A stretch of 64,000 nucleotides of DNA from Pseudomonas argentinensis. GTDB lineage: Bacteria; Pseudomonadota; Gammaproteobacteria; Pseudomonadales; Pseudomonadaceae. Shown here piece by piece: positions 4,193 through 55,333 of the stretch (its first letter is position 1; each line of letters starts with the position of its first letter). The notes beneath the pieces were generated by a model. It was not told the DNA's origin and made no database searches. It saw only the letters and a program-made list of their open reading frames with translations. The DNA is taken from positions 558,001-622,000 of the forward strand of contig NZ_CP056087.1 in NCBI RefSeq assembly GCF_001839655.2, given 5' to 3'. A program made the position numbers and the translations under genes.

Positions 4193-5125
4193 ATGGATCG
4201 CAATACCTTGCTGTTATTCGCCGGCATTGGCGGCATTCTGCTCCTCGCCAGCCTGATCGGCTGGCTGCTGAAACTGCGCGCCGGCCCCGGCCAGCATTCG
4301 GTCATCGACAACCTCAATGCGCGCATCAACGCCTGGTGGGTGATGGTGGCGGTGATCGGCTTCGCCTTCCTGTTCGGCAATACCGGCGTGGTGGTGCTGT
4401 TCTATTGCGTGTCGTTCTATGCGCTGCGCGAGTTCATGACGCTCACGCCCACCCGGCGCAGCGACTACCCGGCACTGGTCGCCGCCTTCTATTTCGCGCT
4501 GCCGATGCAGTACCTACTGATCGGTATCGACTGGTACGGTCTGTTCGCCATCTTCATTCCGGTCTACGTGTTCCTGCTGCTGCCGATCCTGTCGTCACTG
4601 GGCGGCGACACCACGCGCTTCCTCGAACGTACCTCCAAGGTGCAGTGGGGCCTGATGATCGCGGTGTACTGCATCTCCACCGTACCGGCGCTGCTGACCC
4701 TGGACATCGCCGGCTTTGAGGGCCGCAACCTGCTGCTGATCGCCTGGCTGGTGATCGTCGTGCAGATCTCCGACGTGCTGCAGTACGTGTGCGGCAAGCT
4801 GGCCGGCAAACGCAAGATCGCACCCAACCTGTCGCCGTCGAAAACCGTCGAGGGTTTCTTCGGTGGCGTGGCCCTGGCAACCCTGATCGGCGCCTCGCTG
4901 TACTGGATCACCCCCTTCGCCTTCTGGCAGGCCGGCCTGTTCGCCTTGCTGGTATGCCTGCTCGGTTTCGCTGGAGGCCTGGTGATGTCGGCGATCAAGC
5001 GCGACCGCGGGGTTAAGGACTGGGGCCATATGATCGAAGGCCACGGCGGCATGCTCGACCGCCTCGACTCGGTGTGCTTCGCCGCCCCGGTGTTCTTCCA
5101 TATGGTGCGCTACTGGTGGGGCTGA
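4193..5125 (+). CDS. ynbB: Phosphatidate cytidylyltransferase (CdsA/YnbB-like)
   Basis: A 310-residue polytopic membrane protein that would make CDP-diacylglycerol from CTP and phosphatidate. The CdsA signature is intact near residues 270-290 (SAIKRDRGVKDWGHM, then EGHGGMLDRLD), and SPSKTVEGFFGG is near residue 214. E. coli YnbB is a CdsA paralogue in the equivalent operon, so this is likely a second, non-housekeeping copy. Start at ATG 4193, one base after the acyltransferase stop. It is the last gene before the convergent terminator shared with gyrB. Confidence 0.85.
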   Translation: MDRNTLLLFAGIGGILLLASLIGWLLKLRAGPGQHSVIDNLNARINAWWVMVAVIGFAFLFGNTGVVVLFYCVSFYALREFMTLTPTRRSDYPALVAAFYFALPMQYLLIGIDWYGLFAIFIPVYVFLLLPILSSLGGDTTRFLERTSKVQWGLMIAVYCISTVPALLTLDIAGFEGRNLLLIAWLVIVVQISDVLQYVCGKLAGKRKIAPNLSPSKTVEGFFGGVALATLIGASLYWITPFAFWQAGLFALLVCLLGFAGGLVMSAIKRDRGVKDWGHMIEGHGGMLDRLDSVCFAAPVFFHMVRYWWG

Positions 5126-44994: not shown

Positions 44995-45103
44995 GATCGT
45001 AGACCTCAGGGGTAAACGGCACAGCAGGACACGGCGAGACAGCCCGCACGAGCAGGCAGCGATCGGCGCGTGCCCGCCCACCGCGGGTTGCCAAACAGAG
45101 GAT

Positions 45104-45280
45104 TCAGGCCGGTCTCCGGGCTCACGACGATCACCTTGCGGCGATAGGGATCGGCCTTCCCATGCGCGTGCACAGTGGCCAAAACGATCCTGGCATTCGC
45201 TTACCGTTGCGGGGGCAGCGCCGGACTCTAACCGGCTTCCCGTTTCACCTCACGCGCGGCGGCGTGAGACACCTGAAACA
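45104..45280 (-). ncRNA. Cobalamin riboswitch controlling cbtB-cbtA-cobE-cobM
   Basis: On the minus strand the core GCTGCCCCCGCAACGGTAAG (near 45200-45220) and the 3' B12 box GCCCGGAGACCGGCC (near 45107-45121) are both present, with a GGGAAGCCGG element between them and the 5' end. These are the defining conserved blocks of the AdoCbl riboswitch. It lies 110 bases before cbtB. End points are approximate. Confidence 0.92.
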
Positions 45281-45379
45281 ACCGGGCAAGAACACCACGA
45301 AGCGGCCAGAGCGTCAATATGCTGCAGGTCGCGCCGCGATTGACCGTTACCCAGGCTCTGCGTAGCCTTGCGGTCTTCG

Positions 45380-45566
45380 AGGTTCTCCATGGGTCGCCAT
45401 GGAGAGGAAACCTGTTCAGAAGGCTTCTAACAGGTTCAAGAGGGAACACGGATCGCCGTGGCTGCCCCCGCAACTGTAAGCAGCGAGTGCGTCGCCAATC
45501 GCCACTGGGAGACCGGGAAGGCCGGCCGCGTGCCATGACCTGCCAGCCAGGAGACCTGCCTCGATA
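45380..45566 (+). ncRNA. Cobalamin riboswitch controlling cobW-cobN
   Basis: The plus strand carries GGCTGCCCCCGCAACTGTAA (45460-45479), the AAGAGGGAA block (45438), CACTGGG and CCGGGAAGG, and the 3' B12 box AGCCAGGAGACCTGCC (45545-45560). These are the canonical AdoCbl riboswitch elements. It lies about 110 bases before cobW and only about 100 bases from the divergent minus-strand copy. The 5' end is approximate. Confidence 0.93.
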
Positions 45567-45675
45567 ACGCTTTCGACAACCGGGCGGGGTGATCCGGTGA
45601 TGCCTTGGCGCGAGCCCTGCTCGTGCCTGCCATCCTATTGCCCGCTCGCCGTTTCTGTAGACGCCAGGGGCCACC

Positions 45676-52869: not shown

Positions 52870-53958
52870 TCAGACCAAGTGGCGCATACGGATGGCGGCG
52901 TCCACCAGCATGCGTTCGGTGCCAGCCCAGCCCAGGCAACCGTCGGTGATGGATACGCCATAGCGAAGCTCGCCGCCGAGGCTCTGGGCACCGTCGAACA
53001 GGTGGCTTTCGATCATCACCGCACGCAGGGCGCCGTCGCCGGCCAGGCGCTGGTCGAGCACGCTGCTCAGCACCTCGGGCTGGCGCAACGGGTTCTTGCC
53101 GCTGTTGGCGTGGCTGCAGTCGACCATGATGCGTGGCGCGATGCCCTGGCGCTCCAGCTCGGCGCGGGCCGTGGCGACGCTGGCGGCGTCATGGTTCGGC
53201 CCGCCGTGGCCGCCGCGCAACACCAGGTGGGTGTCCGGGTTGCCGTGGGTCTGCACCAGCGCCGGGCGGCCATGCGCATCGACGCCGAAGTGCTGGTGAG
53301 CATGGGCCGCCGAGCGTATGGCGTCGCAGGCGATGCCGAGGCTGCCGTCGGTGCCGTTCTTGAAGCCCACCGGCATCTCCAGGCCACTGACCAGCTCGCG
53401 GTGCACCTGGGATTCACTGGTGCGCGCGCCAATCGCCGCCCAGCCGAGCAGGTCGTCGAAGTAACCGGCCACCAGGGGCTGCAGAATCTCACTGGCCAGT
53501 GGCACGCCCAGCTCGAGCATGCGCAGCATCAATTTCCGCGAGCGGCGCAGGCCTTCGGCCATGTCGCCGCTGCCGTCCAGCGCCGGGTCGTAGACCAGGC
53601 CCTTCCAGCCCACCGTGGTGCGCGGCTTCTCGACGTAGGCGCGCATCACCAGCAGCAGGCGATCACCCACCCGCTGGCTCAGCGCAGCCAGGCGCTCGGC
53701 GTATTCGAGTACCGCGGCATCGTCGTGCAGGGAGCAGGGGCCGACCACCACCAGCAGGCGCGGGTCGTGACCATCGAGAATGGCGCGGATCGACTGGCGC
53801 TGTTGCTGCACCTGACGCGCAAGGGTAGGGGACAGCGGCAGTTCTTCGCGCAACTGCACGGCGGTTGGCAGGGGCGAAGCGTGGCGGCGGGATGGCTGGG
53901 CGACCAGGTGCAGGTCGGCGGCTTTGGCGGTGGAGCGGGAATTGACGGCTACGGACAT
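52870..53958 (-). CDS. aroF: 3-deoxy-7-phosphoheptulonate (DAHP) synthase, class I
   Basis: A 362-residue enzyme that condenses phosphoenolpyruvate and erythrose-4-phosphate, the first step to all aromatic amino acids. The signature VVVGPCSLHD is near residue 71 and KPRTTVGWKGL near residue 112; the C-terminal RYGVSITDGCLGW is typical. It shows similarity to the Phe/Tyr-type isozymes; which amino acid inhibits it cannot be told. Upstream are two aromatic-rich leader ORFs and a terminator (54002-54369), pointing to attenuation control. The symbol is tentative among aroF/G/H. Confidence 0.9.
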   Translation of the reverse strand: MSVAVNSRSTAKAADLHLVAQPSRRHASPLPTAVQLREELPLSPTLARQVQQQRQSIRAILDGHDPRLLVVVGPCSLHDDAAVLEYAERLAALSQRVGDRLLLVMRAYVEKPRTTVGWKGLVYDPALDGSGDMAEGLRRSRKLMLRMLELGVPLASEILQPLVAGYFDDLLGWAAIGARTSESQVHRELVSGLEMPVGFKNGTDGSLGIACDAIRSAAHAHQHFGVDAHGRPALVQTHGNPDTHLVLRGGHGGPNHDAASVATARAELERQGIAPRIMVDCSHANSGKNPLRQPEVLSSVLDQRLAGDGALRAVMIESHLFDGAQSLGGELRYGVSITDGCLGWAGTERMLVDAAIRMRHLV

Positions 53959-54001
53959 GGTGATTTCCTCGGCCGGCGCGGACGTTACCGCGCGCGGCGC
54001 A

Positions 54002-54115
54002 CTATCGGGCTCGATGGGATGTTCGATTGAGTGGTTGAGCGGCGTGAGCGCCGGTAAATCGCCAGCTGTAGCGGTAATAGGTCTGGTAGGTGCTGCAGTT
54101 GATATAGGCGGTCAT
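54002..54115 (-). CDS. Aromatic-rich small ORF between attenuator and DAHP synthase gene
   Basis: A 37-codon ORF starting MTAYINCSTYQTYYRYSWRF: five Tyr, one Trp and one Phe lie in the first 20 codons. A GAGGA ribosome binding site is nine bases before ATG 54115. It lies after the terminator hairpin and ends 43 bases before the DAHP synthase start. It could be a second leader peptide controlling translation or rho access, or a small conserved protein. I do not recognise it as a known peptide. Confidence 0.6.
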   Translation of the reverse strand: MTAYINCSTYQTYYRYSWRFTGAHAAQPLNRTSHRAR

Positions 54116-54148
54116 GATGAAATCCTCGTTGGAAAATCTGTGTGCCGG

Positions 54149-54187
54149 AAAAACAAAACCCCCGGTCGGGAGGCCGACCGGGGGTTT
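54149..54187 (-). terminator. Attenuator terminator of the DAHP synthase gene
   Basis: A perfect 14-bp stem, AAACCCCCGGTCGG and CCGACCGGGGGTTT, with a 4-base loop, followed on the minus strand by TTTTGTTTTT. It lies 50 bases after the stop of the aromatic leader peptide and before the structural gene, the position of a transcription attenuator. Confidence 0.85.
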
Positions 54188-54237
54188 CGAGAAACTGTCT
54201 GGTGGCGACCCTGAGTTGCTAGGGCGCCTGTGGGGTA

Positions 54238-54369
54238 TCAGACGCGCCTGTGGCTAAACCAATACCCATAAAAATACGCGGCCGCCGCGACCACGGATGC
54301 CTGGGCACGCGCCATCACGATGCAGGCTGCATCGAGGCGGGTGGCGTTCAGGATCAGGGATGTGGACAT
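54238..54369 (-). CDS. Aromatic leader peptide of the DAHP synthase gene
   Basis: A 43-codon ORF starting MSTSLILNATRLDAA and ending YFYGYWFSHRRV. Codons 32-38 read Tyr-Phe-Tyr-Gly-Tyr-Trp-Phe, six aromatic codons out of seven, just before the end. A GGAG ribosome binding site is about seven bases before ATG 54369. GGGTAT, inside the aromatic codons, can pair with ATACCC just past the stop. This is the classic layout of ribosome-mediated attenuation that senses charged tRNA for Phe, Tyr and Trp. Confidence 0.75.
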   Translation of the reverse strand: MSTSLILNATRLDAACIVMARAQASVVAAAAYFYGYWFSHRRV

Positions 54370-54642: not shown

Positions 54643-55221
54643 TCAGGTTTCCTGCCTGCCGATCCACTTGTCCACCTGGGGCGCCTCGTAGCCTTCGATG
54701 GCCGCCAACAGCGCCTCGATATCCTGCTCGACGATCAGCATCTGGCGGTGCGGTGCCTTGACGAAGGCTTCGCCGACCATATGATCGAGAAACCCGGCGA
54801 GGCGGTCGTAATAGCCGTTGATATTGAGCAGCGCGCAGGGCTTCTGGTGGTGGCCGAGCTGCGCCCAGGTCCACACCTCGAACAGCTCTTCCAGCGTACC
54901 GACGCCGCCAGGCAGGGCGATAAAGCCGTCCGACAGCTCGGCCATCAGCGCCTTGCGCTGGTGCATGGAGTCGACGATGCGCAGGTCGTCGAGGCCGGTG
55001 TGGGCCACCTCCTTCTCCCACAGCGAACGGGGGATCACGCCGATCACTTCGCCGCCGGCTTGCAGCGCTGCGTTGGCCACCGCGCCCATCAGGCCGACGG
55101 AGGCGCCGCCGTACACCAGGCCGACGCCCGCCTTGGCGAGTGCCTGGCCGAGGCGGGTAGCGGCCTCGAGATAGACGGGATTGGTGCCCGCATTGGAGCC
55201 ACAGAAAATGCACAGGCGCAT
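54643..55221 (-). CDS. LOG-family nucleotide phosphoribohydrolase (TIGR00730 type)
   Basis: A 192-residue Rossmann-like protein with the LOG motif PGGVGTLEE near residue 105 and MHQRKALM near residue 90. Family members split a nucleoside 5'-monophosphate into base and ribose-5-phosphate, including cytokinin precursors in some bacteria. Start ATG 55221 ([12 protein letters not shown]), preceded by GGGAG; an in-frame upstream start at 55287 would overlap the divergent promoter. Confidence 0.88.
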
Positions 55222-55333
55222 CGAAAAATCTCCCTGGTGATTAGGCATGCAAACCAGCGACCTTAGCAGACGAGCGGGGCAGCGCACGACCGCCCGCTGC
55301 TACAATGCCGGCTTTGCCCAGCCGGATTGCGCC

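Follow-up and report, generated by a model that had tools for sequence, protein, structure and literature searches.

Two aromatic-rich leader reading frames around a terminator upstream of aroF: a candidate two-stage control by ribosome position

Why would a gene that already has a candidate transcription attenuator carry a second aromatic-rich leader reading frame beyond the terminator? The question is raised by the class I DAHP synthase gene aroF in a 64-kb stretch of DNA, here called the window, that lies within one 5.08-Mb contig. An initial annotation of this region had noted two such frames on either side of a terminator, and had proposed that aroF is controlled in two stages, at transcription and then at translation.

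Organization and conservation of the leader region

The series begins on the minus strand with a TIGR00730-family gene (54643-55287), followed by ORF1 (54238..54369), an intrinsic terminator hairpin with a T-rich tail (54154..54189), ORF2 (54002..54115) and aroF (52870..53958), all transcribed in the same direction; the coordinates, frames and order of the last four are correct as first given. The identification of aroF as a DAHP synthase gene holds, with a TIGR00034 match of 425.7 bits against a cut-off of 173.2. A second DAHP synthase gene, 52% identical, is located at G000:C1:2925546-2926529 (L002). ORF1 has 43 codons and the aromatic end attributed to it, closing with YFYGYWFSHRRV, and is the putative leader peptide of a first switch. 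ORF2, the candidate second leader peptide, has 37 codons, and its first 20 residues include the seven aromatics reported (5 Tyr, 1 Trp, 1 Phe); the ribosome binding site that it was said to own can be read from the sequence as a Shine-Dalgarno (SD)-like GAGG before the ATG (54124..54127, minus). The terminator hairpin and its T-run are likewise present, with a stem longer than the 14 bp initially proposed, as the terminator scan finds 16 pairs in the hairpin (54189-54154).

The aromatic richness of the two ORFs is more than chance within the window. Among 59 ATG starts that have an SD-like string and open ORFs of 10-60 codons on either strand of the 64 kb (nested starts being counted apart), only those of ORF1 and ORF2 have six aromatics in twelve codons; five in twelve are found at three further starts, nested in one frame at 4985-5125 within a 322-codon ORF. 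This latter stretch (plus strand), which is the end of the 322-codon ORF (…APVFFHMVRYWWG), is aromatic-rich and leader-like, and a terminator-like sequence comes after it. Elsewhere in the window RF00174 matches one cobalamin riboswitch at 45090-45291 on the minus strand (114.4 bits) and another at 45388-45577 on the plus strand (98 bits), with about 100 nt between them.

From 561 orthologous aroF loci found we kept 80, from named genomes, and with L063 dropped because it has no upstream DNA, 79 are left for upstream comparison; the genera represented include Pseudomonas, Stutzerimonas, Halopseudomonas, Denitrificimonas, Halotalea, Halomonas, Chromohalobacter and Cobetia. A permissive script finds ORF1 in 79/79 loci and ORF2 in 75/79, and the four lacking ORF2 (L060, L064, L065 and L066) are all Salinicola loci that keep ORF1. 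The last 19 codons of ORF1 hold 6.40 aromatics in frame versus 0.99 and 1.98 off-frame (79 loci and the window), and ORF2, from its ATG to the Phe of its Trp-Arg-Phe (WRF) motif, holds 6.28 aromatic codons in frame versus 0.26 and 0.91 (75 loci and the window). An SD-like string precedes ORF2 in 76/76 sequences and ORF1 in 72/80. The frames and aromatic codons of both ORFs, on whose conservation the initial annotation had staked its proposal, are thus kept in Pseudomonadaceae and Halomonas-type genomes, as are the SD-like strings.

A wider set of 213 classed loci includes 179 with the ORF2 core pattern described below, at least one of them false (L169), with 24 loci that have no anchor left unclassed and some large loci scored in part. 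Further loci agree in having ORF1-like ORFs without ORF2 (e.g. L122, L123, L127 and L128). ORF2 is frequent in the family of the window and in that of G365, and in the family of G408 it is present in only four loci (L125, L170-L172). The comparison of these sequences gives good support to ORF2 as a genuine, conserved second leader.

ORF1, the terminator and P15

The core of ORF1, TATTGGTTTAGC (Tyr-Trp-Phe-Ser; 54253..54264, minus), falls in near-invariant alignment columns and is written in rare TAT and TTT codons (TAT 179/198 and TTT 173/225 in ORF1; TAT 89/457 and TTT 21/339 in the aroF genes). Downstream of the core are three short regions on the minus strand with alternative partners: region 1 (GCGTCTG; 54239..54245), which pairs with region 2 when a ribosome is on the core, region 2 (CAGGCGCCCT; 54221..54230), which pairs with either region 1 or region 3, and region 3 (GGGTCGCC; 54204..54211), which pairs with either region 2 or the 5' arm of the terminator. 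These pairings come from folding the RNA that remains uncovered when a ribosome is held on the Tyr-Trp-Phe core or has arrived at the stop codon, the held state in the window being represented by masking ORF1 to 10 nt before its end. With the ribosome held, GCGUCUG in the window is predicted to pair with CAGGCGC, and the AGGGUC region with the 5' arm of the terminator; with the ribosome at the stop, GGCGCCCU is predicted to pair with AGGGUCGCC.

The search for competing structures that the initial annotation had suggested gives a similar picture over the 80 sequences. Regions 1 and 2 share a mean of 4.8 pairs in the held state versus 0 at the stop, where the value is zero by construction; regions 2 and 3 share 3.5 versus 6.7 pairs, and region 3 and the terminator 5.6 versus 3.8. 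Relative to the stop state, region 3 in the held state gains more than one pair with the terminator in 47/80 and loses pairing in 15/80, counts that include Halomonas types, to which the fixed masks are ill-suited because their stop sits farther from the core. A cruder folding test, restricted to the 5' arm of the terminator, gave means of 0.51 stalled and 0.47 at the stop; it was uninformative and was replaced.

Like the leaders of ribosome-mediated transcription attenuators, ORF1 is short, carries regulatory codons and is followed by an intrinsic terminator; folding predicts a mutually exclusive antiterminator set by ribosome position, both in the window and in the mean over the sequences. 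The proposal that ORF1 and the terminator form an attenuator sensing Tyr, Phe and Trp together is well supported, and in most loci the predicted foldings exclude one another. On arriving at the ORF1 stop, a ribosome would cover region 1, allowing region 2 to pair with region 3 and the terminator to form, while one held at TAT-TGG-TTT would leave regions 1 and 2 paired and region 3 free for the 5' arm of the terminator, giving read-through. The alternative foldings are predictions of the model, and it is from them that we infer how the ribosome behaves.

Rfam has an entry for this segment, RF00627 (P15), which matches from the end of ORF1 to the terminator (54159..54280, minus) with 101.9 bits against a gathering score of 70. 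The model is also strong on the aroF leaders of L031 and L011, and falls below the gathering score at L055, L078, L115 and L122. Because it matches ORF1 together with the terminator, the P15 'sRNA' is probably the terminated aroF leader. In the available portion of the Livny 2008 survey P15 is considered perhaps a riboswitch (PMC2527527), and a paper on 3' ends in P. aeruginosa mentions none of PA1750, aroF and P15 in the available portion of its main text (PMC8297930).

The ORF2 core and its surrounding RNA elements

ORF2 has a core of its own, TGGCGATTTACC (Trp-Arg-Phe-Thr; 54053..54064, minus), recognized by its invariance among loci. The constant part is TGG-CGA-TTT, near-invariant and written in rare codons: the Phe is TTT in 76/76 sequences versus 21/339 in aroF genes, and the Arg is CGA in 75/76 versus 76/2169. 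Among the 76 sequences TGGCGATTTAGC is present in 54, an ACC ending in 19, an AGT ending in two, and CGC in one; in the wider set TTT is also followed by AAC, AAT, ATC, TGC or TAT, and L248 has the variant TGGCGATATAGC. In the first part of ORF2, changes between close pairs are distributed 423:648:940 over codon positions 1:2:3. Inspection of the alignment by eye revealed no conserved partner for the core in cis, and for this reason we suggest that its constancy may reflect selection for slow decoding.

Several other interpretations of the core were considered and rejected. It does not fit a programmed frameshift, as it is not of the form X XXY YYZ and core-to-aroF distances are not constant modulo 3. 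It is not a general motif either: TGGCGATTTAGC is found 82 times in 274 class-wide genomes versus about 71 for a backward-pattern control (hand count), one of the 82 matches is located at aroF (G162), and none of the 30 read by eye lies inside an ATG-started aromatic ORF. Within the genome of the window, the sole exact match of TGGCGATTTASC is the ORF2 core. A hairpin directly after the core in short-type sequences is convincing by eye in some, with a shuffle z of only -0.19 (n=50). Rfam has no match over ORF2 in the window, and none at gathering score in five loci searched to E 5.

Some related sequences are noted here in their own right. In L100, TGGCGATTTAGC is found outside the aroF leaders within a stretch between stops, STRFSWRYWRFSL, that is aromatic-rich and has no ATG. 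The cores of L183-L185, L190, L191 and L194 have TTTTAT, TTTTAC or TTTTGC after TGGCGA. Shortly before the ORF2 stop, CGAACA is kept in Pseudomonas types (about 54025-54018 in the window), and both CGA and ACA are otherwise rare within aroF genes.

Sequences with a long-type ORF2, which comprise the fluorescens/putida and Halomonas types, have in common an H-type pseudoknot in fixed register after the core; the window belongs to the short type and has none. The pseudoknot was examined in a gapless 66-nt alignment (A1) of 52 distinct sequences, duplicates being removed and L070, L232, L237, L241 and L244 left out for longer loops or by choice. Stem S1 has seven pairs and begins 18 nt past the first base of TGG, stem S2 has six, and one nucleotide separates the S2 5' and S1 3' strands; given the size of a ribosome, one whose decoding sites hold the core would be positioned approximately against S1. 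Paired cells amount to 92.6% in S1 and 99.0% in S2, and to 21-51% with slid partners. Three S1 pairs have double-sided changes, in seven cells (L226, L234, L240, L251 and L061), a number reached by 0/500 column shuffles. Other measures are contrary to the pseudoknot. Shuffles within columns leave 94.3% of cells paired versus 95.6% observed, because most columns scarcely vary, and yield 10.3 further pair types versus 11 observed; a +3 slide has more double-change cells than the pseudoknot register (28 versus 7) and a covariation score of 0.106 versus 0.119 in the true register, with 50.6% of cells paired. Stops within the long-type sequences are found in 0/52 for frame 0, 6/52 for frame 1 and 48/52 for frame 2. 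A covariance model of the long-type element, built on S1 alone, gives a single place in each genome that it matches, in 49/59 for the genus of G534 and 35/61 for the family of G365. All 35 places in the latter are directly upstream of aroF, and the five checked in the former (G534 and four loci) are all just before aroF; in eight model loci that were fetched, S1 has 6-7 pairs and S2 has six.

A hairpin, which we refer to as the bridge, occupies the interval from the ORF2 stop to the aroF SD region (GAGGAAA, read from the sequence at 53964..53970, minus) in Pseudomonadaceae types. In the window it extends over 53970..54001 (minus) with a predicted energy of -20.9 kcal/mol, the spacer being identical to that of L003. 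Hairpins of -8 kcal/mol or lower are predicted in 50/54 short-type and 33/34 fluorescens-type distinct spacers, with a median stop-to-stem distance of 1 nt and -1 nt and a median stem-to-SD distance of 1 nt and 0 nt, respectively; comparison with shuffled sequences gives mean z values of -2.78 (n=49) and -2.77 (n=32). The arms of the bridge vary by lineage yet remain paired (e.g. L017, L020, L057, L114 and L188). Since there is no U-run downstream of it, the bridge is not a second intrinsic terminator. The Halomonas types, for which 14 distinct spacers from 33 loci were folded, have the ORF2 stop close to aroF itself, with a stop-to-ATG distance of -4 to 7 nt in 9/14 named loci. Bridge, overlap and pseudoknot are not universal: L067, L068, L070 and L076 have 16-28 nt or weak hairpins; in L183-L185 the bridge hairpin is absent and the stop is 3 nt before the SD; L028 is a further exception.

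The simplest way for the core to control aroF would be to mask its ribosome binding site, and in the window this pairing can form, with TGGCGATTT of the ORF2 core facing AAATCACCA over the aroF SD and start (53958..53966, minus) as UGGcGAUUU with AAAUCaCCA. Similar stems of about 8-10 pairs can be drawn in L014 and L020. Three tests speak against masking of the SD by the core as a general rule. In a comparison over 29 clusters, the core matches its own aroF site no more closely than it does other aroF sites (p 0.39), the window, L007 and L013 being first in their group. The shuffle z is similar with and without the core: -0.49 at 24 aroF sites scored as core-less, a set that includes L187 and L192, both of which have a degenerate ORF2, versus -0.68 at 108. 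Covering the core lowers the mean cost of opening the aroF site from 7.36 to 6.82 kcal/mol (9.8 to 9.4 in the window), which is a small change, and a ribosome at the ORF2 stop has a like effect (6.59). With respect to erm/cat-type translational attenuators, ORF2 has its own SD-like string (76/76), and an SD that is masked and then freed by a stalled ribosome is predicted for the window and some loci, not generally.

Readings of the tandem layout and relation to known systems

Of the two-stage control originally proposed, the part that makes ORF2 a real leader stands, and the simple version in which the core masks the SD is not general; control at the level of translation by ORF2 is likely, judging by the anatomy of the locus. 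Our own proposal, which we regard as evenly balanced between right and wrong, is that two serial switches, each read by ribosomes, govern aroF, and that stalling turns the gene on. Switch 1 would be ORF1 with the P15 terminator, acting as a classical transcription attenuator, and switch 2 would act on the read-through RNA, in which ORF2 would be translated. When charged aromatic tRNAs are scarce, the Tyr run and TGG-CGA-TTT would hold ribosomes, and with the ORF2 stop adjoining the aroF SD, the position of ribosomes in ORF2 would set how frequently aroF is initiated. With ribosomes held upstream, the SD would not be occupied by terminating ones; in the window and in some of its relatives, pairing between the core and the aroF site would also be prevented.

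This sign is favoured because of feedback logic. If finishing ribosomes feed aroF, starvation would lower aroF expression, contrary to feedback; if finishing ribosomes or a stem between core and SD hinder aroF, stalling would raise it, and this latter version fits the physiology. Against the proposal stand the masking tests and the exceptions given above, and also the overlap of stop and start in Halomonas types, a layout usual for positive coupling, from which the opposite sign would follow; moreover, ORF2 is missing from Salinicola and others where ORF1 stays. In its full form the scheme is a two-stage gate, in which RNA that has escaped the attenuator meets a translational leader whose stop is handed to the aroF ribosome binding site by bridge or overlap, and whose timing device is the slow Trp-Arg(CGA)-Phe(UUU) core, joined in many species by the pseudoknot about one ribosome front ahead. 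We hold this fuller form tentatively, at somewhat less than even confidence.

The same anatomy could serve positive coupling, a reading that we consider unlikely, in which ribosomes finishing ORF2 reinitiate at aroF by way of the bridge or the overlap, ORF2 acts as a gate or booster, and stalling lowers aroF. It would account for a stop beside the aroF SD or start in most types, with a four-nt overlap in several Halomonas types, and for a bridge that begins about 1 nt past the stop, so that a terminating ribosome would open it; but its sign is the reverse of what feedback by aromatic amino acids calls for, and it leaves the packing of ORF2 with aromatic codons unexplained. The sign would be restored if ORF2 encoded an arrest peptide that senses an excess of free aromatic amino acid and arrests at W-R-F, leaving the stop unreached and cutting the coupling to aroF. 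Such an arrest suits the coupling layout, giving negative feedback with positive coupling, and W-R-F is retained in most sequences despite varying flanks. The constraint on the core, however, is at the level of codons or nucleotides (CGA and TTT) and not of the peptide alone, and L187, L192 and L205 have lost the Trp or the whole core and kept the aromatic ORF, so that we think an arrest peptide very unlikely.

Two further readings dispense with translational control of aroF by ORF2. Leaders that work with Rho are known, and ORF2 could serve a second step in transcription, e.g. Rho-dependent termination before aroF governed by ribosome cover of the RNA. Such a step needs no second intrinsic terminator but gives the conserved adjacency of stop and SD no role, and we rate it as very unlikely too, if anything a little more so. 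That ORF2 is a decayed copy of ORF1 or a product of chance, with no function, is barely credible to us. Its absence from Salinicola and other lineages and the degenerate core of five loci in the family of the window (L186, L187, L192, L203 and L205) are what such a history could leave, but it does not sit well with the in-frame aromatic enrichment, near-invariant core, fixed-register pseudoknot and bridge hairpins found in two families.

If switch 2 works as proposed, one gene would be read twice by ribosome position, first in transcription and afterwards in translation, and how the two levels share the work could be tested directly. The hairpin filling the gap from stop to SD would be an element of translational coupling that is open to test. 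Independently of its mode of action, ORF2 is a conserved second leader ORF with RNA elements of its own, covered by none of the Rfam and NCBIfam models tested.

Among known systems, switch 1 resembles trpL/pheL-type attenuators in having regulatory codons at the end of ORF1 followed by exclusive hairpins and an intrinsic terminator, and differs from them in that Tyr, Trp and Phe codons are read jointly and a second leader ORF lies downstream of the terminator. Two short ORFs in one leader, as in the aroF tandem, are found in mgtM/mgtP and erm(A); in these, to our knowledge, there is no intrinsic terminator between two aromatic leaders. The P15 model (RF00627) covers the end of ORF1 to the terminator here and in the aroF leaders of other lineages but is filed as an sRNA gene, where we read a terminated aroF leader; this catalogued 'sRNA' thereby gains a likely identity as the aroF attenuator.

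Nearest in plan to the ORF2 switch, to judge by the available portion of its description, is the LEU element upstream of leuA in Actinobacteria, which has a leader ORF with regulatory codons, a conserved pseudoknot and no terminator, and for which a stem joining the codon run to the gene's SD has been proposed, its authors doubting classical leader translation there (PMC1262725). Shared features are the leader ORF and codon run and the lack of a terminator; a pseudoknot is seen in the long-type ORF2 and is absent from the window. The LEU element differs in phylum, gene and sequence, whereas aroF has a complete transcription attenuator ahead; the stem between codons and SD is present in the window but not conserved at aroF, and the available portion of the LEU description states no counterpart to the bridge hairpin between stop and SD. 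We did not file ORF2 as a LEU element, the codon:SD stem showing no preference for its own site (29 clusters, p 0.39).

Predicted leader control upstream of an aroF gene has precedents in a putative Phe-Tyr-Phe leader peptide in Corynebacterium glutamicum (PMC4046766) and a predicted RNA motif in Shewanella (PMC2659441); as far as the available text of these reports extends, the one describes a single putative leader peptide and the other an RNA motif, neither with a tandem layout. Our searches of an open-licence library turned up no description of tandem leaders at a Pseudomonas aroF, subscription papers lying outside their scope. We place the tandem layout within leader-peptide control, as a new variant of it.
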